Below, in pieces: positions 707 through 21,329 of a stretch of DNA of 22,052 nucleotides (positions within the stretch are counted from its first letter, which is position 1; each line of letters starts with the position of its first letter). Both the position numbers and the translations under genes were made by a program. Origin of the DNA: a virus; IMG/VR virus record IMGVR_UViG_3300043433_000136, positions 1-22,052 of that record; one strand, given 5' to 3'. The notes beneath the pieces are model-generated. The model did no database searches and was not told the origin of the DNA. It worked only from the letters and a program-made list of their open reading frames with translations.

Positions 707-1102
707 TTATTTTTCGTAGTCATTTATATCATAATATAAATCTTCACTGGTTAGAATGTTTTTATCATATATGATATTTTCATCATCACCAAAATTTATA
801 TTTATCTCATGTTGTATTAAATCATGCCATATTTGTTTTTGTTTATGTGCAATTATAAACCCTTCTTCTCTATCAACATATCTATCAAAAGAAGTTAAGA
901 AACCAAAGTCTTTTCTTTCAATTAAGTTAGTATCAAAATCGGATTTTAATTGTTGTAATATCATAAAACAATTATTATGTCTTCTTCCACTTATAACAAT
1001 CCCAGTTGATACATTTCTAGGTTGTTCTTTATAAACAATTCCATCTTTATACCAAATTGCTGCACATAATATATATTCTTCTCTATTTTTTTCTGGTTTC
1101 AT
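707..1102 (-). CDS. Conserved phage protein of unknown function (GRRHxxC type)
   Basis: 131 residues from ATG at 1102 (MKPEKNREEYILCAA). The frame is open three codons further up, but there it would need a TTG start. Recognisable blocks are EEYILCAAIWYKDG near the N-terminus, TGIVISGRRHNNC in the middle, and GFLTSFDRYVDREEGFIIAHKQ later. These blocks recur in a family of phage and bacterial proteins with no known function; the conserved R, H and C residues could bind a ligand or metal. It is the first gene of the minus-strand operon 1102-1 and is divergent from the toprim gene. A TATATTTG element lies just upstream, resembling the host -7 box. Confidence 0.8.
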   Translation of the reverse strand: MKPEKNREEYILCAAIWYKDGIVYKEQPRNVSTGIVISGRRHNNCFMILQQLKSDFDTNLIERKDFGFLTSFDRYVDREEGFIIAHKQKQIWHDLIQHEININFGDDENIIYDKNILTSEDLYYDINDYEK

Positions 1103-1140
1103 ATGATACAAATATAGTAATAATAATTAATATATACATA

Positions 1141-1986
1141 ATGAAACATTTATTATTATTTGAAAACTTTGACACTACTTCACATTTAAAAGGTAGAGGT
1201 ATAGATACAGAAAAAACACGAGTTATAATTGATGAAGAATCCGGTGATATTTTTTTCTTTTTATATAATTTAACCGGACAAATGGTTGGTTATCAAAAGT
1301 ATAATCCTAAATTTCCAAAGAAAGGACAAAATAGTAAAAATTTGAGTAATCCAAGAGATACCAAATATTACAATTGGGTTGGTGAAGAAGATGAAGGTAA
1401 AAAAATTGCAGTATGGGGTTTAGAATCTTATAATGTTAGTGATAAATATATGTTCATAACGGAAGGTATATTTGATATAGCAAGAGCTCATGAGGCAGGC
1501 TATCCGGGTATTGCAGTTTTAGGTAATGATCCAACACCACAATTAAAATTTTGGTTAAAAACTTTACCACAAACTAAAATTGTTATCTATGATAATGATA
1601 AGGCAGGTGAGAAATTAATAAAACTTGGTGATTATGCATTCTCTGTTGAAACTGGTAAGGATTTAAATGATTTAACACCTGAGCAAGCTAAAGTATTTTT
1701 AGAAGATATAATTAATAAGATTGAAAAAGTAAATGAATCAAATGCTTACTCACTTGAAGAGTATAATTCTTATATTGCTTCTGAATTAGGGAAATATGAT
1801 TTAAGACCTGCTCAAGTTAATCAACTACTTGATTTTTATTCAGATGAAATTGAAGATTCTCGCAATACTGGTCAATTCCCTAAAATATTTGTTGATAAAA
1901 TTGTTAGTGAATTGGAACTTAACACAGGTGGATTTCCAACGATTAAAATACCAAATGCAAGTATTAAACAATTAAAATATCTATAA
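1141..1986 (+). CDS. Toprim-domain protein (primase/topoisomerase-like)
   Basis: 281 residues from ATG at 1141. The open frame extends upstream, but MKHLLLFENF is the natural start because it repeats an N-terminal motif seen in four other proteins here. The central part (about residues 95-190) is a toprim domain: the conserved glutamate is in FITEGIFDIARA, followed by GIAVLGNDPTPQ, and the acidic metal-binding motif is IVIYDNDKAGEKLI. Toprim domains bind Mg2+ and occur in DnaG-type primases, topoisomerases, OLD nucleases and RecR. No zinc finger or helicase domain is present, so it is a stand-alone toprim protein; a role in replication priming is likely but not shown. The C-terminal 90 residues are acidic and unassigned. 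A terminator follows at once. Confidence 0.8.
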   Translation: MKHLLLFENFDTTSHLKGRGIDTEKTRVIIDEESGDIFFFLYNLTGQMVGYQKYNPKFPKKGQNSKNLSNPRDTKYYNWVGEEDEGKKIAVWGLESYNVSDKYMFITEGIFDIARAHEAGYPGIAVLGNDPTPQLKFWLKTLPQTKIVIYDNDKAGEKLIKLGDYAFSVETGKDLNDLTPEQAKVFLEDIINKIEKVNESNAYSLEEYNSYIASELGKYDLRPAQVNQLLDFYSDEIEDSRNTGQFPKIFVDKIVSELELNTGGFPTIKIPNASIKQLKYL

Positions 1987-4213: not shown

Positions 4214-5452
4214 TTAGTTATCTTCTTCATTTAATTCTTCATCTTGGAAAAAGATTGATGGATCTCTTTCAGTAAGGAAATTTCTAGCAATTAAAAGTCT
4301 TTTAGTTTTATCTCTAATCCAATCTTTTGCCATTTCATGTAAATCTTTACCTCTTGATAAAGACATAACATAGCCAAAATTTCTATCCTTGTTATGTACT
4401 AAAGCATATTCTTTGTGGTTTTCACCCATATCTAAAAATACTTGATAGGATTTTTGTATATCTAATACTTTTTCAGTAATAGTTTTTTTAATCACTGCAA
4501 TTATTTTTTCAATTCTTTCATGTGCTTCTACTTGGTCTTCTGGTATTTGTCCCAAAATATCATCTATCTTATCATCTAAAACATACCCAATAAGCACATT
4601 TTCTCTATATAAATCTTCTGTTAAAAGACCGTGTCTTTCACAGTACCAAGGTGTTTTTAATTTGAAAAAGAAATCATTTCCATTTACATCTTCTGCTTGA
4701 ACAATAACACCTTCTTTATCTTCTTGTTTTGCAACAACTTCGATTAAGTGGTCTAAATCATTATATTCATCTTCAAATGGTGCAATTTTAACAGAACCTA
4801 TTTTATCTAAGTGGTCTTTTAAATCTATATGTTTACCAGTTTTATTATCTCTTAATCTTAATAAAATCAATTCTTCTTTAGAATATCGTAATACGATACG
4901 ATTTTGTGGCGCAACATATTCAAAAATGGCAACAATATCATTATCTAAAGTCCAGTCAACTAATTTTTTTATATCTGAGTTAGTTTTATAAACTCTATCA
5001 ATACCAATTGCTTGGTCACTTTCAAATGACATTTTAGATTTACCTAAAACTTTACCATTTGGAAATTTAACAAATGACGCAATTGATCCATCTTCTTTGT
5101 TATTTACATATTTTATTTTGTAATTTTTAACAATAGAATACATAGATTCAGGTACTTGGTTCAAGTTAAAAAACTTTTCAAGTAATAAATATCTATTAAA
5201 TACTGATCCATCGGTATTGAAAACAAAAGTTAACCCTCTCATTTCATAACCATTATAGTTTACAAAGTCTTTATATTGTGCAAGTCTGTAGTTGAAAAAA
5301 GATACATTATATCCATCAACTTCAGTTTTAATTTCATAAAATGGAGAATCCTCATCAGAGCACATTTCAACTGCTTGATCATAAGTAGGTAGTCTATAAC
5401 CTTTTACTTCTAAATTTTCATTTACAAATTCTATGTATTTTAATACTTTCAT
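4214..5452 (-). CDS. rnlA: RNA ligase 1 (T4 Rnl1/RnlA family)
   Basis: 412 residues, slightly longer than T4 Rnl1 (374). The nucleotidyltransferase motifs appear in order: motif I KEDGS (about residue 118, lysine being the AMP acceptor), a following GKSKMSFES block, motif III IFEYVAPQNRIVLRY, motif IV KEGVIVQ, and motif V FFFKLKTPWY. T4 Rnl1 seals 5'-phosphate and 3'-OH ends and repairs tRNA anticodon loops cut by host anticodon nucleases; the same role is likely here, given the nearby tRNA island. The N-terminus MKVLKYIEFVNENL carries the motif shared with four other proteins in this window. The gene starts 2 bases after the upstream stop. Confidence 0.92.
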   Translation of the reverse strand: MKVLKYIEFVNENLEVKGYRLPTYDQAVEMCSDEDSPFYEIKTEVDGYNVSFFNYRLAQYKDFVNYNGYEMRGLTFVFNTDGSVFNRYLLLEKFFNLNQVPESMYSIVKNYKIKYVNNKEDGSIASFVKFPNGKVLGKSKMSFESDQAIGIDRVYKTNSDIKKLVDWTLDNDIVAIFEYVAPQNRIVLRYSKEELILLRLRDNKTGKHIDLKDHLDKIGSVKIAPFEDEYNDLDHLIEVVAKQEDKEGVIVQAEDVNGNDFFFKLKTPWYCERHGLLTEDLYRENVLIGYVLDDKIDDILGQIPEDQVEAHERIEKIIAVIKKTITEKVLDIQKSYQVFLDMGENHKEYALVHNKDRNFGYVMSLSRGKDLHEMAKDWIRDKTKRLLIARNFLTERDPSIFFQDEELNEEDN

Positions 5453-11600: not shown

Positions 11601-12326
11601 ATGATATGTAATGATATTTTAACAGGTAAAAGTGGAATATACAGAATAACTAATTTGATAAATGGTAAAATTTATATAGGTAGAAGTGTTAATTTAAAGA
11701 GTAGAAAATCTAAACATAAAACAAAAATATCAAATACTATAATTTCAAGAGCTATTCAAAAATATGGTCATGATAATTTTCTATTTGAGGTAATTGAATA
11801 TTGTGAGATAGATAAGTTAGTAGAAAGAGAGGGTTATTATTTAGATTTATTACAACCATTTAGAGAGAATAATGGTTATAATATATTAAAGGATAGTAGT
11901 ATTGGCGGATGGTTGGGTATGTTTCATACACCAGAAACAAAAATAAAAATGTCTAAATCTAAAAAAGGTACTTATATACCTTGGAATAAAGGAAAAAGGG
12001 GTGTACAAGAATGTAGTGAAGAAACTAGAAAGTTAATGTCAGAGAATAGAAAAGGTGAGGGTAATTCTTTTTATGGCAAGAAACATTCTGAGGAAACTAT
12101 TAATCATTTAAGAGAAATTGCAAAAAAAAGAGATATGTCTCATTGTAATAAGAAAGTTGCTCAATTGGATAAAATTACTGGTGAAATAATAAAAATATGG
12201 GATAGTATTTCTGATGCAGCAGAACAAATATTAGGTGATAAAAAAAACAGCCGAATTTCGGCTGTTTGTAGAGGTAAAGCTAAGTCTGCAGGTGGATTTA
12301 AGTGGTTATACTTTATTCAAGAGTAA
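11601..12326 (+). CDS. GIY-YIG homing endonuclease with NUMOD repeats
   Basis: 241 residues. The GIY-YIG catalytic domain (about residues 8-95) contains SGIYRITNLINGKIYIGRS, an arginine in the NLKSRKSKH helix and the metal-binding Glu in KLVEREGYYLDLL. The middle has NUMOD3-like DNA-binding repeats (FHTPETKIKMSKSKKG, CSEETRKLMSENRKG, KHSEETINHLREIAK). The C-terminus (about 190-241) is a NUMOD1-like helix-turn-helix: VAQLDKITGEIIKIWDSIS then AVCRGKAKSAGGFKWLY. Such free-standing Seg-type enzymes cut phage genomes at specific sites and spread with their flanks. The 3' end overlaps the convergent HisRS-like gene by 21 bases and contains that gene's terminator. Confidence 0.92.
   Translation: MICNDILTGKSGIYRITNLINGKIYIGRSVNLKSRKSKHKTKISNTIISRAIQKYGHDNFLFEVIEYCEIDKLVEREGYYLDLLQPFRENNGYNILKDSSIGGWLGMFHTPETKIKMSKSKKGTYIPWNKGKRGVQECSEETRKLMSENRKGEGNSFYGKKHSEETINHLREIAKKRDMSHCNKKVAQLDKITGEIIKIWDSISDAAEQILGDKKNSRISAVCRGKAKSAGGFKWLYFIQE
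12239..12266 (-). terminator. Terminator of the HisRS-like gene, inside the GIY-YIG coding sequence
   Basis: Perfect stem AACAGCCGAA / TTCGGCTGTT, followed on the minus strand by a run of T (TTTTTTTT). It lies about 40 bases beyond the HisRS-like stop and within the codons for KKNSRISAVCR of the endonuclease. On the plus strand it has no following T tract, so it should terminate only minus-strand transcription. Confidence 0.85.
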
Positions 12327-12944
12327 AATCCTATCTATTCCCAGTGCTAGTCCTATGCCGCCTTCATATGAACCACCACCACAGATTTGCTTTTGTGCTC
12401 CTAATTCAGGACAAGCAATTTCAAATCCTTTACCACCAGTATAATAATCAAGTCCTCTAGTTGCATCTAAGTTTACTTCATAACTATCCGTAGTTATTTC
12501 AATAAGTTTCTTTGCAATTTCTAAAAGTTCATCCGTATAATCTATTCTAGGATTGATTACCTCAACACCAAATTGTGTAAATTGTCTGTATCTACCTGCT
12601 TGTGGTTTCTCACCTCTAAAACATTCTCCGATATAAAATAGTTTTACATCTTTAGTCATTTTGAATGTTTCTTTTGATAATTGTTGGATTATAGATGTAT
12701 ATTCTGGTGCCAAACAAATATCTCTATTACCTCTATCGGTAAAAGTGTACATCATATTATTATTTTCTTCACCAACTTTTTTATCAAATGTTTCAGATAA
12801 TTGTATAACCGGAATCATCATTTCTTGGTAACCATAAGATTCAAGTATTTCTATCATTTTATTTAAGATAGTTCTTTTTTTCTTAGCAGTATCACCAAAG
12901 ATAATTCTAGTTCCCTTATATGTATTTTTTAATTTAATTTCCAT
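12306..12944 (-). CDS. HisRS-like catalytic core without anticodon domain
   Basis: 212 residues from ATG at 12944; the frame is open upstream, but that is read-through of the tRNA. Class II synthetase motifs of the HisRS type are present: motif 2 CFRGEKPQAGRYRQFTQFGV, the histidine motif RGLDYYTG with GFEIACPE, ICGGGSYEGG, and motif 3 GLALGIDRILLL. The protein ends directly after motif 3. Bacterial HisRS is about 420 residues, so the C-terminal anticodon-binding domain is absent and the insertion between motif 2 and the RGLDYYTG block is shortened. It may charge or modify an RNA without reading an anticodon, or act like HisZ. It lies 15 bases downstream of a tRNA gene in one transcript. Activity is unproven. 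Confidence 0.85.
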   Translation of the reverse strand: MEIKLKNTYKGTRIIFGDTAKKKRTILNKMIEILESYGYQEMMIPVIQLSETFDKKVGEENNNMMYTFTDRGNRDICLAPEYTSIIQQLSKETFKMTKDVKLFYIGECFRGEKPQAGRYRQFTQFGVEVINPRIDYTDELLEIAKKLIEITTDSYEVNLDATRGLDYYTGGKGFEIACPELGAQKQICGGGSYEGGIGLALGIDRILLLNKV

Positions 12945-12959
12945 AATTTCTATTAGTTG

Positions 12960-13044
12960 TGGCGAGAGAAGGAATCGAACCTCCGTTTTCCGGCTATAAG
13001 CACCGGCGTGATACCTTATGATGGTCCATTCCACGCATCTCGCG
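12960..13044 (-). tRNA. tRNA with D-loop hairpin insertion, anticodon uncertain (UUA or UAU)
   Basis: A complete cloverleaf on the minus strand. The acceptor stem is CGCGAGA / TCTCGCC with a C1-C72 mismatch, and the discriminator is A73 with no encoded CCA. The D stem is CGTG/CACG. The T arm GGAGG-TTCGATT-CCTTC is normal. The D loop is 21 nt instead of about 9: after GAATGG comes an extra ACCATCATAAGG that can form ACC/GGT around ATCATAA. The only good anticodon stem, CCGGT/GCCGG, gives the loop GCTTATA, which puts C at position 33 and UUA at 34-36; the standard count from the D stem would give UAU, but with an unpaired stem. It is transcribed with the HisRS-like gene. Confidence 0.75.
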
Positions 13045-13083: not shown

Positions 13084-13096
13084 CTTATTTTAAATA

Positions 13097-13126
13097 AAAA
13101 ATCCCCTAACTATTAAAAGTTAGAGG
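13097..13126 (-). terminator. Terminator of the large structured RNA
   Basis: Minus strand: CCTCTAACT pairs with AGTTAGGGG (one U-G pair), followed by ATTTTTTATTT. On the plus strand the same position would be a C-A mismatch, so the hairpin favours minus-strand transcription. Confidence 0.88.
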
Positions 13127-14024
13127 TTTCTATTTCACGTGTGTTGTTTATTTAGTAAAGACTGAGAATACATCTTTTAGTAAGTGTCTTTTGAAGAATT
13201 ATTGGTTCTCTTCGTTTCCATAGCCTTTTGGACTATAACACTCATTGACGATTAGTTAGACTAATCACTTCTTGAGGTATCAACTACTCTCTTATTACTT
13301 AACTCTCTTCAACCTTGCGAGCTGACTCAGGATTCGACTCCTTAGAGGTTTTTGGTAAGAATACGACTTAACTTGCGGTCTTATCGTGCACGGAACAGCT
13401 CCGTACTATGTAGTCAACTATCGTTGATACCTGATAGACACTTTTGCTTTTTAGTTTAATTTTACTTAAATTGTAAATTGCTTTGTGTTTGTGAATGTGT
13501 CGAAGAAGTGGTCTACCCTAAGCTTTGTTATCTTTTGAACAACAAAATACTAAACTCCTCCGTGAGACCTCCCGGTCGCCATATTTTAAGAATACTTCAA
13601 ACTAACATCTTGGTAGATATTTAGTAGGGATAGTAGCAGCACCACCTGTTCTCTACCTTACCTTTCGGTTTTAAGTAGCCTCTTATATTGGAACACGCAA
13701 TCATATGGTTGGAATGCCACATTTCTCACATAATTCCTATAGGTTATTCTTATTGGTGTTCCCACCTCAACTTGACAATTCACGTTGCCGAGTCAGTTTT
13801 CCATTTCATCTATACCGTTAGGCCTCGATTAATCAGGATGACTGATATCCTACTTGTGTACTTGAGCTCTTTTGAAGCCGCAAAACCCTTTGACTATTGG
13901 TTTCACTTTATCCTACTTTCGTAGTTTATTTAACGACGATACACCGCCGATTATCATTTTACTAACTACCGAAGTAACTAGTTGGATAATACAATATTTT
14001 CAAAGAACATATTTGTTTTAATTA
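13098..14024 (-). ncRNA. Large ornate structured RNA, about 0.93 kb (GOLLD/ROOL-like by setting)
   Basis: No coding frame fits this stretch, and its GC content is visibly higher than that of the genes. It has its own promoter and terminator on the minus strand. Minus-strand hairpins capped by stable tetraloops recur: a 9-bp stem with UUCG at 13961-13982, CTAC-GAAA-GTAG at 13913-13924, GGTG-GGAA-CACC at 13755-13766, ACC-GAAA-GGT at 13660-13669, GACC-GGGA-GGTC at 13566-13577, plus ACGGA/TCCGT at 13390-13404 and GATTAG/CTAATC at 13250-13266. Several stems need G-U pairs on the minus strand that would be A-C on the plus strand, which fixes the orientation. Phage-borne giant RNAs beside tRNAs are known (GOLLD, ROOL). 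Family membership is not established here, and the 5' end is inferred from the promoter. Confidence 0.82.
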
Positions 14025-14029
14025 TAGTA

Positions 14030-14061
14030 CAAAGATAATAAAAGTTGTTTAAACTACCAAA
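14030..14061 (-). promoter_or_regulatory. Promoter of the large structured RNA
   Basis: Minus strand: AAAAGATTTGGT, then TATCTTTG, with 20 bases between TTTG and TATCTTTG. It is nearly identical in layout to the tRNA promoters at 14824, 14941 and 15035. Confidence 0.85.
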
Positions 14062-14082
14062 TCTTTTTTACTTTATTTTTTA

Positions 14083-14259: not shown

Positions 14260-14265
14260 ATTTAG

Positions 14266-14338
14266 TAGCGGGAGCTGGACTCGAACCAACGACCTTATGG
14301 TTATGAGCCACACGAGCTACCTACTGCTCTATCCCGCG
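14266..14338 (-). tRNA. tRNA-Met (CAT), initiator-like
   Basis: A normal 73-nt cloverleaf: acceptor CGCGGGA/TCCCGCT, D stem GAGC/GCTC with a normal loop, anticodon stem TGTGG/CCATA with the loop CTCATAA, and T arm GTTGG-TTCGAGT-CCAGC. C1 opposite U72 is unpaired and A11-U24 is present, both hallmarks of bacterial initiator tRNA, although only two of the three G-C pairs of the initiator anticodon stem are kept. The discriminator is A73 and CCA is not encoded. It follows the preceding tRNA by 5 bases in one transcript. Confidence 0.93.
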
Positions 14339-14343
14339 ATATG

Positions 14344-14431
14344 TAGTCCATAAAGGATTCGAACCTTTGTTTCATCTTGTAAACAAGAAGCGTCCTGGAC
14401 AGTAAACTATCAACCGCTAGACGAATGGACC
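14344..14431 (-). tRNA. tRNA-Glu-like body with D-loop hairpin and abnormal anticodon hairpin
   Basis: The acceptor GGTCCAT/ATGGACT with A73, the D stem GTCT/GGAC and the T arm AAAGG-TTCGAAT-CCTTT are good. After AGCGG (G18-G19) the D loop contains an extra hairpin, GATAG-TTTA-CTGTC. The anticodon region forms TCTTG-TTTA-CAAGA, or CTTCT/AGATG with an 8-nt loop and one mismatch; no register gives a 7-nt loop with U33. U11-A24, U13-G22, A46 and the four-base variable loop agree with tRNA-Glu recognition elements. No CCA is encoded. The anticodon, and whether it decodes at all, are unknown. Confidence 0.78.
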
Positions 14432-14547: not shown

Positions 14548-14552
14548 TTTTA

Positions 14553-14583
14553 CAAAGATAGTTAATTTTTTTGAGAAACCAAA
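14553..14583 (-). promoter_or_regulatory. Promoter of the 14547-14266 RNA operon
   Basis: Minus strand: TTTG, 19 bases, TATCTTTG. It should drive the small folded RNA, the Glu-like tRNA and tRNA-Met as one transcript, since no further promoter lies between them. Confidence 0.82.
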
Positions 14584-14589
14584 TATATT

Positions 14590-14692
14590 TATAAATTTTT
14601 TAATTCAAAGGTAACTAACCTATAACAATTAAATGAGAAAGAACCGTGTTAATTGGGTAGTTAATTCCCATATTTCTATCTTTCTGTTTTTG
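14590..14692. other. Spacer between two RNA transcripts
   Basis: It holds a weak GGG/CCC hairpin around AATTAACTA and a repeated AATTAAC on the minus strand. I see no gene, T-loop or clear terminator. Confidence 0.4.
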
Positions 14693-14808
14693 TAGTCTGT
14701 AAGGGATTCGAACCCATATTACTTCTCAAAAGAGAAGAGTCCTGTTTTACTTTACATTAGTGACCGAGGTCTTTTTATTTAGTAAAACATCCGTTAGACG
14801 AACAGACC
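14693..14808 (-). tRNA. tRNA-Glu-like body with 46-nt structured D-loop insertion
   Basis: 116 nt. The acceptor GGTCTGT/ACAGACT with A73, the D stem GTCT/GGAC and the T arm ATGGG-TTCGAAT-CCCTT (one mismatch) are recognisable. After AACGG (G18-G19) comes an insertion closed by the perfect 9-bp stem TGTTTTACT/AGTAAAACA and holding an inner GACC/GGTC hairpin. The anticodon hairpin CTTCTC/GAGAAG closes down to TTTT; an acceptable 5-bp stem leaves 6 nt (CTTTTG), not 7. U11-A24, U13-G22, A46 and a four-base variable loop are as in tRNA-Glu. It has its own promoter. Decoding ability is doubtful. Confidence 0.75.
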
Positions 14809-14823
14809 ATTTTATTTCTTTAA

Positions 14824-14855
14824 CAAAGATAAGATAACTTTTTCAATCTACCAAA
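14824..14855 (-). promoter_or_regulatory. Promoter of the 14808-14693 tRNA
   Basis: Minus strand: AAAAAAGATTTGGTA, then TATCTTTG 20 bases after TTTG, ending 15 bases before the tRNA. Confidence 0.85.
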
Positions 14856-14940
14856 TCTTTTTTAATTATTTTTAAAAGTTTTAGTTATACTACTTTTAAT
14901 TTTTCAAAATTTCTATGAACTTTTATTCTGATTTGTTTGA

Positions 14941-14972
14941 CAAAGATAAGATAACTTTTGTTATATACCAAA
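14941..14972 (-). promoter_or_regulatory. Orphan tandem promoter copy 1
   Basis: Nearly a copy of the promoter at 14824: the same AAAAAAGATTTGGTA and AAAAGTTATCTTATCTTTG blocks with a few changes between. No RNA gene lies in the 85 bases before the next promoter. Confidence 0.75.
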
Positions 14973-15034
14973 TCTTTTTTATTATTTTTGATAATAAAAA
15001 ATTATCTTTAAATAGTTTGTTTCATTTATATAAA

Positions 15035-15065
15035 CAAAGATACAAAAGTTTTTTATTTCACCAAA
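15035..15065 (-). promoter_or_regulatory. Orphan tandem promoter copy 2
   Basis: Minus strand: AAAAAGATTTGGTG, then TATCTTTG 19 bases after TTTG. It is followed only by AT-rich sequence with a weak GATAAT/ATTATC hairpin before the next promoter copy. It sits directly downstream of the inhibitor-like gene. Confidence 0.72.
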
Positions 15066-15325: not shown

Positions 15326-16042
15326 TTATTTTAGTTGTATATTAAAATTAATTACACATCTATTTTCTGATCCATAAAAAGGTTCTACTGAATGAACTAT
15401 ATCATAAGGCCAAATAATTAACATTCCTTTTTTGGGTCTTATGTAGTATTTCATACCTCTAATATGAAATGCAAATACACCAGAATATGGATGGTCTTTA
15501 ATTGGTAATCCATCTGATAAGTAATATCCACCACTGAACATCATCGGTTTGGCTTCTTCCGGACTCCATCTACAATGATTATGTGCATTGTGTCCTCTTC
15601 CACTATATGGATCATAGTACTGCATCCAACTTTCTGTTATTAGTGGAGTTGAGTTATGTTTATATCCGATTGACTCTAGTAAGTATAAGTATCCATTTTC
15701 AATTCTATCTTTTATAATTTTAACATCAACATTATCATCAATATTTAAAAAGTCATTAGGTGGTGTCCAGAATCTACTACCAATTGGTTGGAACTCATTT
15801 TCTTCTACCCATTCATCTTCTCTATCGTACCATACTTGAAAGTTATCTTGTCTTTCAGTATCAAAACGACCTGGTAGTTCTTGTCCCATTAATTTTTGTG
15901 CATCGGTTAACTTATCATATCCAAAGTCATAAACTTTTTTATGAAAATCATCTTCATCAAATTGGTGTTGGTATATTGGAATTGGTGCAAGAAATTTAAT
16001 ATCATCAATTCCTGATTCTATTATTGGTTTTTTAAAATACAT
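15326..16042 (-). CDS. 2-oxoglutarate/Fe(II)-dependent oxygenase
   Basis: 238 residues. The C-terminal half has the jelly-roll oxygenase pattern of the phage 2OG-FeII family: ESWMQYYDPYSGRGHNAHNH for the first metal ligands, FSGGYYLSDG, RPKKGMLIIWPYDIVHSVEP for the distal histidine, and ENRCVINFNIQ for the arginine that binds 2-oxoglutarate. The N-terminal half has IPIYQHQFDEDDFH, typical of the same family. These enzymes hydroxylate proteins, nucleic acids or small molecules. It is the last gene of a run with two glycosyltransferase-like genes and a second oxygenase. Confidence 0.85.
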   Translation of the reverse strand: MYFKKPIIESGIDDIKFLAPIPIYQHQFDEDDFHKKVYDFGYDKLTDAQKLMGQELPGRFDTERQDNFQVWYDREDEWVEENEFQPIGSRFWTPPNDFLNIDDNVDVKIIKDRIENGYLYLLESIGYKHNSTPLITESWMQYYDPYSGRGHNAHNHCRWSPEEAKPMMFSGGYYLSDGLPIKDHPYSGVFAFHIRGMKYYIRPKKGMLIIWPYDIVHSVEPFYGSENRCVINFNIQLK

Positions 16043-17607: not shown

Positions 17608-17760
17608 TCAATCTGTTCCAGATGGAACAGAATTGGTAACTATATTAAGATGAATATCAATATATTTTGAAATGAATTTTATACCTTCTAAAAAGTTTTC
17701 TAAAATCCAACCTCTATCTTTTGATATACCTACAACTACCGTAATTATTTGTATTTTCAT
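17608..17760 (-). CDS. 50-residue fragment resembling a glycosyltransferase N-terminus
   Basis: The frame begins MKIQIITVVVGISKDRGWIL and continues ENFLEGIKFISKYIDIHLNI to VTNSVPSGTD before TGA. It looks like the first strand-helix-strand of a GT-A fold and then stops. Its ATG overlaps the stop of the oxygenase gene (ATGA), so it would be translated by coupling. A hairpin, CTGTTCC/GGAACAG, covers its last codons and may act as a terminator. It may be a remnant of a once longer gene or a genuine small protein. Confidence 0.5.
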   Translation of the reverse strand: MKIQIITVVVGISKDRGWILENFLEGIKFISKYIDIHLNIVTNSVPSGTD

Positions 17761-18362
17761 ATCTCTTTTCCAAATTTATGTAGTTGTTTAACACCCATTG
17801 ACTGACCAACTAAAACAGTTCTTTCTCCACTTATTAACTCAGTGACACCATGTGGATGTGTATATGATCCAGGAAACAAAATTAAATCCCCTCTTTTTAA
17901 TTTAATACTAACTTCTTGTTTTGGGAAAACTAAATTACCACCTTCGTAATTATCATTGAGACACACAACGAATGTTATTCCACTAAAATCACAATGTATA
18001 TTAGAATTTAATTCAAATGTATTTAATTCATTATAAACTTGAATAAAAATATCTTTCCAATCTGTTCTTGCATGTTTTTTATAACCTTCAATTTGGTCTA
18101 AATTATTTAGATATTTGAAGTAGTAATCATACATCTGATTTTCTATTTTATCATACCAAAAATTATTAAATTTTTCTAAAAGTTCAGGGTATTTATAAAC
18201 CTCAATTCTACCACGAATACCCTCAAATGGAAATTGTGCATATCTTAAATCTCTATTAAAAATAATTTCTCTGTTAGTATCTACCAAAGAACAAAGTTCA
18301 TTTATAATTTCATCAGGTATTACTTCACCGAAGTATAATATATCACTTCCTAATTCTAACAT
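17757..18362 (-). CDS. 2OG-Fe(II) oxygenase, prolyl-4-hydroxylase-like
   Basis: 201 residues. The facial triad is visible: H and D in NIHCDFSGITFVVCLN (about residues 125-140), and the distal His in PGSYTHPHGVTEL. The arginine in SGERTVLVGQS would bind 2-oxoglutarate. The block NYEGGNLVFPKQEVSIKLKR followed by GDLILFPG is typical of P4H-type enzymes. A protein side chain is a likely substrate class. The start overlaps the upstream glycosyltransferase-like gene by 7 bases. Confidence 0.88.
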   Translation of the reverse strand: MLELGSDILYFGEVIPDEIINELCSLVDTNREIIFNRDLRYAQFPFEGIRGRIEVYKYPELLEKFNNFWYDKIENQMYDYYFKYLNNLDQIEGYKKHARTDWKDIFIQVYNELNTFELNSNIHCDFSGITFVVCLNDNYEGGNLVFPKQEVSIKLKRGDLILFPGSYTHPHGVTELISGERTVLVGQSMGVKQLHKFGKEI

Positions 18363-20501: not shown

Positions 20502-21329
20502 TTAGTCTTTTGCATAAGCATCAAATAACTGAGTACCTGATGTTCTTCTATCAATTGCTTTCCATCTTTTATCTAAGAAAGCTAATTTTGCTTTATCTAT
20601 TTTACAGTTTCTATCTGAGATATTACCATCATTGAATAAGTCAATCATTTGATCCATACTTAAAGTTGGATATTTCTTATCAAATAAAGGATCTGGATGT
20701 GACCAACCAAATTTGATTAACCAATTTAAGATTGCTACAGTACTGATGTCTTTATAATCATCAGTAGTACCATTTCCACTTCTTTTAGAAAGTTTTTTAG
20801 CTCCTTCAAAAAGTAATCCTGCATGAGTAATTATTGGGAATGGTTTATCACCATCCACTTTACAAATCAAATCCCAAATAACTTGTTGTTTAGATTGATT
20901 TGCAATATGGTCAACACCTCTGATGATGTTAGTTACATCATAATCATAATCATCTAAGATAGAACAGAAGTTATAAGTTGGAAATCCATTATTTCTTAAT
21001 ATAACCATATCATAAGCTTGATTATCATTACCAATCATATTGATAATATAACCATTATCAGTTTTAGTACCAATTTTCTTAGCCATATCAGAGTATCTAT
21101 CTAATCTATCTGATTGTCTGAAAGTAATATCATGGTCTAATCCAAACTGGCTCATTTGGTCATAGATATAGTCAATATAAGAAGCTTGATTTCTTTCTTG
21201 GTCCGTATCATCAATTCTTAGGATAAATGTCCCATTATTGGCCTTAGCCATCAAATAATTAAGAAGTGCAGTCCTCATGTTTCCAATTTGCATATATCCG
21301 GTCGGGCTTGGCGCAAAGCGTGTTATCAT
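20502..21329 (-). CDS. GluRS-like catalytic domain without anticodon-binding domain
   Basis: 275 residues. Class I synthetase features of GluRS are clear: FAPSPTGYMQIGNMRTALLN at the N-terminus, ILRIDDTDQERN, a central IIRGVDHIANQSKQQVIWDL and the KMSKS-type loop KKLSKRSG. The first residue of the HIGH motif is Gln (QIGN) instead of His. The protein stops at about the end of the catalytic and stem-contact domains, whereas bacterial GluRS is about 470-500 residues; the size is closer to GluQ-RS (about 300), but no zinc cysteines are seen. It may glutamylate an RNA without reading an anticodon. A TATCTTTG box lies 19 bases upstream. Confidence 0.85.
   Translation of the reverse strand: MITRFAPSPTGYMQIGNMRTALLNYLMAKANNGTFILRIDDTDQERNQASYIDYIYDQMSQFGLDHDITFRQSDRLDRYSDMAKKIGTKTDNGYIINMIGNDNQAYDMVILRNNGFPTYNFCSILDDYDYDVTNIIRGVDHIANQSKQQVIWDLICKVDGDKPFPIITHAGLLFEGAKKLSKRSGNGTTDDYKDISTVAILNWLIKFGWSHPDPLFDKKYPTLSMDQMIDLFNDGNISDRNCKIDKAKLAFLDKRWKAIDRRTSGTQLFDAYAKD

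Follow-up and report, generated by a model that had tools for sequence, protein, structure and literature searches.

A full-length GOLLD RNA on a putative Bacteroidota megaphage fragment: predicted cage contacts and proximity to initiator-like tRNA-Met

Results and Discussion

Identity and extent of the RNA

The minus strand of positions 13098-14024 of the DNA analyzed here (the window, a 22,052-base fragment that is an IMG/VR virus record) is, with near certainty, a full-length GOLLD RNA. The RNA thus belongs to a known kind, and what is new is its linkage to initiator tRNA. The account developed below, in which a full-length megaphage GOLLD would assemble itself into a cage with a role in translation, is considered quite probable as a whole; the expression timing, assembly, cargo and function of the window RNA are in each case what we infer.

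Identification is based on the Rfam covariance models, a search that the original prediction had proposed for the minus strand. RF02032 (GOLLD) matches 13562-13159 (minus strand) over the whole model (1-416 of 416) and scores 315.4 bits where 150 is the cut-off (E 6e-90). At E<=1 the window gave no match to ROOL, OLE or any other large-RNA Rfam family. The GOLLD part of the earlier "GOLLD/ROOL class or new class" is therefore the one that survives, while ROOL, like OLE, is rejected, as is a new class. That the RNA is nonetheless a different giant RNA, or of an unrecognised class, might be argued from its 5' domain, which lies outside the Rfam GOLLD model; with a full-model match at twice the cut-off, and with the 5' and 3' domains remaining joined in at least 149 relatives, this reading is hardly credible. 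In env-38, the member of the class with a solved structure, the 5' domain comprises residues 1-420 and the 3' domain residues 421-833 (PMC12286853). Because the Rfam model spans the 3' domain only, 14024-13563 is the place where the 5' domain is expected. The principal features are as follows.

13563..14024, minus strand: GOLLD 5' domain, predicted cage cap; outside the Rfam model, assigned by homology and covarying pairs
13159..13562, minus strand: GOLLD 3' domain, the Rfam RF02032 match
13448..13500, minus strand: variable A-rich linker of low alignment identity, from the first stem of the 3' domain to the long-range closing stem
14030..14061, minus strand: Bacteroidota-type promoter, TTTG at 14061-14058, 20 nt, TATCTTTG at 14037-14030
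13093..13126, minus strand: intrinsic terminator, CCTCTAAC..GTTAGGGG-ATTTTTTATT, 8-9 bp stem and U run
13973-13970, minus strand: UUCG tetraloop hairpin
13920-13917 and 13666-13663, minus strand: GAAA tetraloop hairpins
about 13377-13372 and 13319-13314, minus strand: GCAA loop hairpins, one of which (L20) is a kissing loop

What had been read from the letters of this segment is borne out in every part. The longest open reading frames within 13098-14024 encode 41-78 aa on mixed strands, so that no credible protein gene is present, and among homologues the longest stop-free run has a median of 82 codons (n=76) with no conserved open frame. The GC content of the span is 0.34-0.38, compared to 0.22-0.30 for most adjacent coding windows. 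Folding z-scores against dinucleotide shuffles are -2.31 for the minus strand and an unremarkable -0.93 for the plus strand; since the Rfam match also lies on the minus strand, the RNA is placed there, as had been claimed. At least five minus-strand hairpins capped by UUCG or GNRA tetraloops had been counted, and this number stands; a plain GNRA cap is not an adequate description of the GCAA loop of L20, a kissing loop. ARAGORN finds no tRNA inside the GOLLD RNA or its linker in any relative scanned.

The promoter and terminator that had been noticed on either side were likewise found. The arrangement of TTTG, 20 nt and TATCTTTG is one that we take to be the Bacteroidota promoter type, and 63 of 74 relatives have TAnnTTTG somewhere in the 150 nt upstream, as against 14% of background windows; in 40 of the 63 that have the motif it stands at about -30. 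The terminator at 13126-13093 is the sole one in the region (0.5 expected by shuffling) and folds with a z-score of -4.06. A transcript running from about 14025 to 13098, with its start at about 14022-14025, is predicted, and its length of about 0.93 kb agrees with the earlier estimate. The promoter type (GATTTGGT..TATCTTTG) recurs in the tRNA/GOLLD stretch, at 14855-15040, 14550-14600 and 14030-14063, all on the minus strand; the units therefore seem to be separately transcribed.

Relatives and covariation

Relatives were gathered by scanning IMG/VR with two exact patterns, one per domain, followed by nhmmer iteration on the fetched loci. The two patterns fall on many common contigs at equal spacing, and nhmmer gives at least 200 matches, at least 149 of them full length over both domains. 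Among the matches listed, full-length relatives are mostly 840-940 nt long and the closest to the window RNA is 72% identical; a set made non-redundant at 90% identity from these matches contains 76 sequences. The bases of the exact patterns (around 13924-13907 and 13563-13545) are conserved in part because they were searched for, and the covarying columns discussed below lie elsewhere. The GOLLD of the 634,780-bp phage LR745206.1 (loci L002/L018) is homologous across both domains, with 64% identity over 858 nt. With at least 149 full-length relatives sharing one 5'-domain type, the entire RNA can be modelled, beyond the half covered by Rfam. A further pattern from the 3' end, TAAAAGNTGTANTCTCAG, proved unspecific, with GOLLD in one of its 50 matches. 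The plasmid collection contained no match, and in bacterial and archaeal genomes none of the 80 exact matches to the 5'-domain pattern was a GOLLD by nhmmer.

Covariation was evaluated in the 76-sequence MAFFT alignment by a G-test with average-product correction, using an in-house script in the manner of R-scape; the null consisted of 20 simulated alignments in which substitutions were re-dealt per branch of a FastTree tree. At E<=0.05, 56 column pairs covary; in 50 of these, over 80% of the sequences form a standard pair, and both domains are represented. The RNAalifold consensus (194 pairs) holds 43 of the covarying pairs, and the others include contacts that cross the consensus. Six of the 56 significant pairs are not predominantly standard pairs; some adjoin helix ends, where they probably reflect alignment or tertiary effects. 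The following contacts are of interest.

13856..13944, minus strand: 5'-domain loop-to-strand contact, GUGUA 13944-13940 with UACAC 13860-13856
13434..13516, minus strand: pseudoknot, 13516-13512 with 13438-13434
13247..13415, minus strand: pseudoknot, 13415-13413 with 13249-13247

In the first of these the 13942/13858 pair is GC in 46 sequences, AT in 16, CG in 10 and TA in 4, and is thus paired in 100% (n=76). In the second, 13515/13435 is CG in 43, TA in 28 and GC in 3, and 13514/13436 is GC in 55, AT in 17 and TA in 3. The 13414/13248 pair of the third is also always paired (AT 45, CG 23, TA 8; n=76).

The collection of homologues and the check for covarying pairs that had been recommended thus gave positive results, and neither coding potential in relatives nor a lack of covariation was found. 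These data bear directly on the notion that the segment is protein-coding or decayed DNA whose fold is accidental. AT-rich phage DNA with open reading frames of up to 78 aa could be cited in its favour; set against 50 covarying standard pairs relative to a tree-based null, a conserved promoter and the absence of a frame kept among homologues, it was rejected and is given practically no weight.

Contacts predicted to build the cage

In the env-38 cage of 14 copies, bridge B7 joins loop L20 of one chain to the linker of a second by base pairing, and bridge B8 is the pairing of L21a with its own copy in the opposite half-shell, as a GC-to-CG swap among relatives shows (PMC12286853). Candidate counterparts of both bridges are present in the window RNA; the names L20 and L21a are assigned here by helix order and kind rather than by direct alignment to env-38.

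13375..13447, minus strand: L20-linker kissing pair, 13447-13446 (GC) with 13376-13375 (GC), B7-like
13333..13338, minus strand: L21a loop GUCGAA with self-complementary CG, counterpart of the symmetric bridge B8

The linker/L20 pair 13446/13376 is CG in 39 and GC in 35 of the 76 sequences, and the adjacent pair stays G-C in 73 of 76. The L21a loop reads CGCAA in 58 of 76 sequences and UCGAA in 16, the window belonging to the latter group. Covariation separates intermolecular from intramolecular pairing only where adjacent bases covary, as in L21a; because adjacent bases cannot pair within a chain, the L21a swap supports self-association. Conservation in window-type GOLLDs of the two contacts that build the env-38 cage is thus supported by comparison of sequences, and the covariation is independent support for both.

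An alternative is that GOLLD acts as a monomer or as a scaffold of RNA and protein, such as a regulator that binds ribosomes, and that the cage is a property of the RNA in vitro. The covarying pairs lie mostly within one chain, as such a reading would have it; ribosomes are reported in GOLLD pull-downs, and phages close to that of the window are rich in translation genes. However, the self-complementary dinucleotide of L21a survives the GC-to-CG swap, which internal pairing of a single chain cannot explain, and published 14-mers are stable at nanomolar concentration. The monomer or scaffold is accordingly regarded as unlikely, and a cage formed by the window RNA during infection, by analogy with env-38, as likely.

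Association with initiator-type tRNA-Met

A tRNA-Met gene with initiator-like features lies upstream of the window GOLLD.

14265..14338, minus strand: tRNA-Met (CAU), 255 nt upstream of GOLLD; initiator-like in C1xU72, A11-U24 and GG/CC beside the anticodon loop

This proximity recurs among relatives. Of 54 ARAGORN tRNAs lying no more than 600 nt from one of the 76 GOLLDs, 27 are tRNA-Met, compared to 16 of 183 elsewhere in the loci (Fisher p 2e-10, on counts that ignore kinship), which corresponds to a tRNA-Met density of 0.31/kb within 600 nt versus 0.027/kb elsewhere, a difference of about 12 times. The gene is downstream in 14 loci (in 12 of them at 6-20 nt past the GOLLD core) and upstream in 12, including the window. 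An unpaired 1-72 position is a hallmark of bacterial initiator tRNA; a 1-72 mismatch is present in 38 of 46 distinct tRNA-Met sequences near GOLLD and in 6 of the 26 distant ones (p 9e-7, the sequences not being independent lineages), and 29 of the 46 near ones also show two G-C pairs at the loop end of the anticodon stem. The association is not universal: 50 of the 76 loci have no ARAGORN tRNA-Met within 600 nt, ARAGORN being prone to overlook odd tRNAs here, and tRNA-Met is also absent near two GOLLDs with different 5' domains (L019 and L367). For env-38 a Met-tRNA upstream has been published, with no mention of initiator identity (PMC12286853), and a literature search on initiator tRNAs in huge phages returned nothing relevant.

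It is tempting to suppose that, in Bacteroidota megaphages, a functional link exists between GOLLD cages and the phage initiator tRNA, which the cages may hold, protect, deliver or co-form with, within a translation initiation run by the phage; given the gene positions and tRNA features on which it is built, this proposal is put forward as a speculative one, with the odds clearly against it. The setting also comprises genes for proteins like pared-down aminoacyl-tRNA synthetases and for tRNA-like RNAs that depart from the standard form.

The same gene positions could be read to mean that GOLLD is mainly a tRNA carrier: as a long folded segment before or behind the phage initiator tRNA, it would shield the maturation of that tRNA or set its timing. 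In the 12 of 76 loci with tRNA-Met at 6-20 nt past the core, the two would share one transcript, to be separated by RNase P. On the other hand, 12 loci, the window among them, have the tRNA upstream instead, and in the window a separate promoter and terminator serve GOLLD. Moreover, 50 loci are without such a tRNA, and two conserved cage contacts would be left unexplained; a carrier function is thus very improbable, and the self-assembling cage is retained as the preferred reading.

Host and megaphage setting

The RNA ligase encoded in the window shares 71% identity with its counterpart in LR745206 and 67% with the one in LR756502. Both phages are in the megaphage group of PMC9723777, and LR745206 has a gene for a SusC-type TonB receptor, its host not being confidently assigned. 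The window comes from a relative of these megaphages of 635-642 kb, which belong with the largest known bacterial viruses. Of 16 relatives of the RNA-ligase protein, 2 (one of them LR745206) have GOLLD on the contig, many of the contigs being fragments. Since the scan of bacterial and archaeal genomes gave no GOLLD, the host call rests on promoter type, and conservation of the putative promoter argues for Bacteroidota hosts across the relative set. This GOLLD type is thereby placed in Bacteroidota megaphages. Other phage gene regions of the window are listed below; the genes are for T4-type RNA ligase 1/tail fibre attachment, primase, the GIY-YIG homing endonuclease described further below and two 2OG-Fe(II) oxygenases.

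4214-5452, minus strand: other phage gene region
1057-1986, plus strand: other phage gene region
11601-12326, plus strand: other phage gene region
15326-16042, minus strand: other phage gene region
17757-18362, minus strand: other phage gene region

Proposed function and comparison with known systems

GOLLD is a class with a solved cage structure, and we know of no function or cargo for it. In the proposed mechanism, a megaphage infecting Bacteroidota would transcribe GOLLD from its own promoter and stop at its own terminator, and the RNA would fold as 5' and 3' domains joined through a floppy A-rich linker. Held together by A-minor contacts and kissing loops, copies would then assemble into a closed cage that consists of RNA alone and has the linker in its interior. 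Such a cage might help the phage to take over translation during the lytic phase, in that it would enclose or hold some component of the translation apparatus; the best candidates for this cargo are the phage initiator tRNA and ribosome-related cargo. Published work shows that GOLLD expression rises at lysis. A translation role of the cage, suggested by the neighbouring genes, is a minority bet; initiator tRNA and translation nevertheless indicate where GOLLD function may be sought, and offer a testable clue.

The closest known system is env-38 (Kretsch et al. 2025, PMC12286853), which resembles the window RNA in its 3' domain, two-domain layout, variable linker and L20-linker and L21a contacts, in its length (833 nt versus about 0.85-0.93 kb here), in a Met-tRNA gene immediately upstream and in residing in a phage genome. 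The window RNA differs in having diverged in sequence and in its own Bacteroidota-type promoter, and its host group and megaphage setting are outside those in the published GOLLD accounts consulted for comparison. The LR745206.1 GOLLD shares the kind of promoter and the neighbouring tRNA-Met and D-loop-insert tRNAs, but has another tRNA order, with a D-loop-insert tRNA directly after GOLLD, in a record that is unannotated. ROOL is also a large phage RNA found near tRNAs and forms cages (8-mer); however, its sequence and fold are different, and the window has no Rfam ROOL match. The Mycobacterium aubagnense GOLLD lies in a phage-derived tRNA cluster and is expressed there, but contains an internal pseudo-tRNA, of which none was found in window-type GOLLDs, and belongs to another host phylum (PMC6582537).

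Neighbouring tRNA-like elements and synthetase-like genes

Two tRNA-like genes, at 14342-14430 and 14690-14810 (both minus strand), have a perfect acceptor stem, T arm and D stem, in a sequence (GGYCYRU-TC-GUC-UAGYGG...AG-GAC) that resembles Bacteroidota tRNA-Glu. The D loop carries a 15-45 nt hairpin, and the anticodon arm has 6- or 8-nt loops or tetraloops with an anticodon that is not constant; the folding z-score of 14690-14810 is -3.3. Kin are present in L002/L018, L101, L192, L199, L274, L275, L277, L278, L279 and L281, and D-loop-insert tRNAs recur in GOLLD-bearing huge phages, often about 1 kb or less from GOLLD. Pairing within the inserts is kept while sequence varies (e.g., GUUUUAC..GUAAAAC versus GUUUAC..GUAAAC). 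ARAGORN at relaxed settings or with introns gave noise only, and the literature on D-loop insertions in phage tRNAs yielded nothing relevant. These genes are possibly non-decoding tRNAs. In LR745206 (locus L018) a D-loop-insert tRNA occurs letter-identical at 721-817 and 1918-2012, before and directly after GOLLD, as though GOLLD had entered between the two or been duplicated along with the tRNA.

Just downstream of GOLLD, 12306-12944 (minus strand) encodes a 212-aa HisRS-like protein (motifs FRGEKPQAGRYRQFTQFGVE, RGLDYYTGG and GLALGIDRILLL) that looks reduced to the class II catalytic core, without the anticodon-binding domain. Because it is 73-74% identical in the megaphages LR756502 and LR745206, it is considered a protein that is kept and not a fragment. 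The 5' end of a longer HisRS-like reading frame is overlapped by a tRNA-like element at 12957-13044 (minus strand), with a 6-bp acceptor, C1xC72, a CGUG/CACG D stem, a 21-nt D loop and the anticodon loop GCUUAUA, for which neither ARAGORN nor Rfam makes a call. A GIY-YIG homing endonuclease gene with NUMOD3 adjoins the HisRS-like gene.

The 275-aa product of 20502-21329 (minus strand) resembles GluRS in its catalytic part (motifs SPTGYMQIGNMR and KKLSKRSG), but the anticodon-binding domain is absent and the acceptor-binding insertion mostly missing; it is 72% identical in LR745206 and falls under the NCBIfam cut-offs for GluRS and GluQRS. It may act on the nearby tRNA-Glu-like RNAs or on a non-tRNA target. 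Together, the tRNA-like genes and the two small synthetase-like proteins may depart further from known systems than this GOLLD does.
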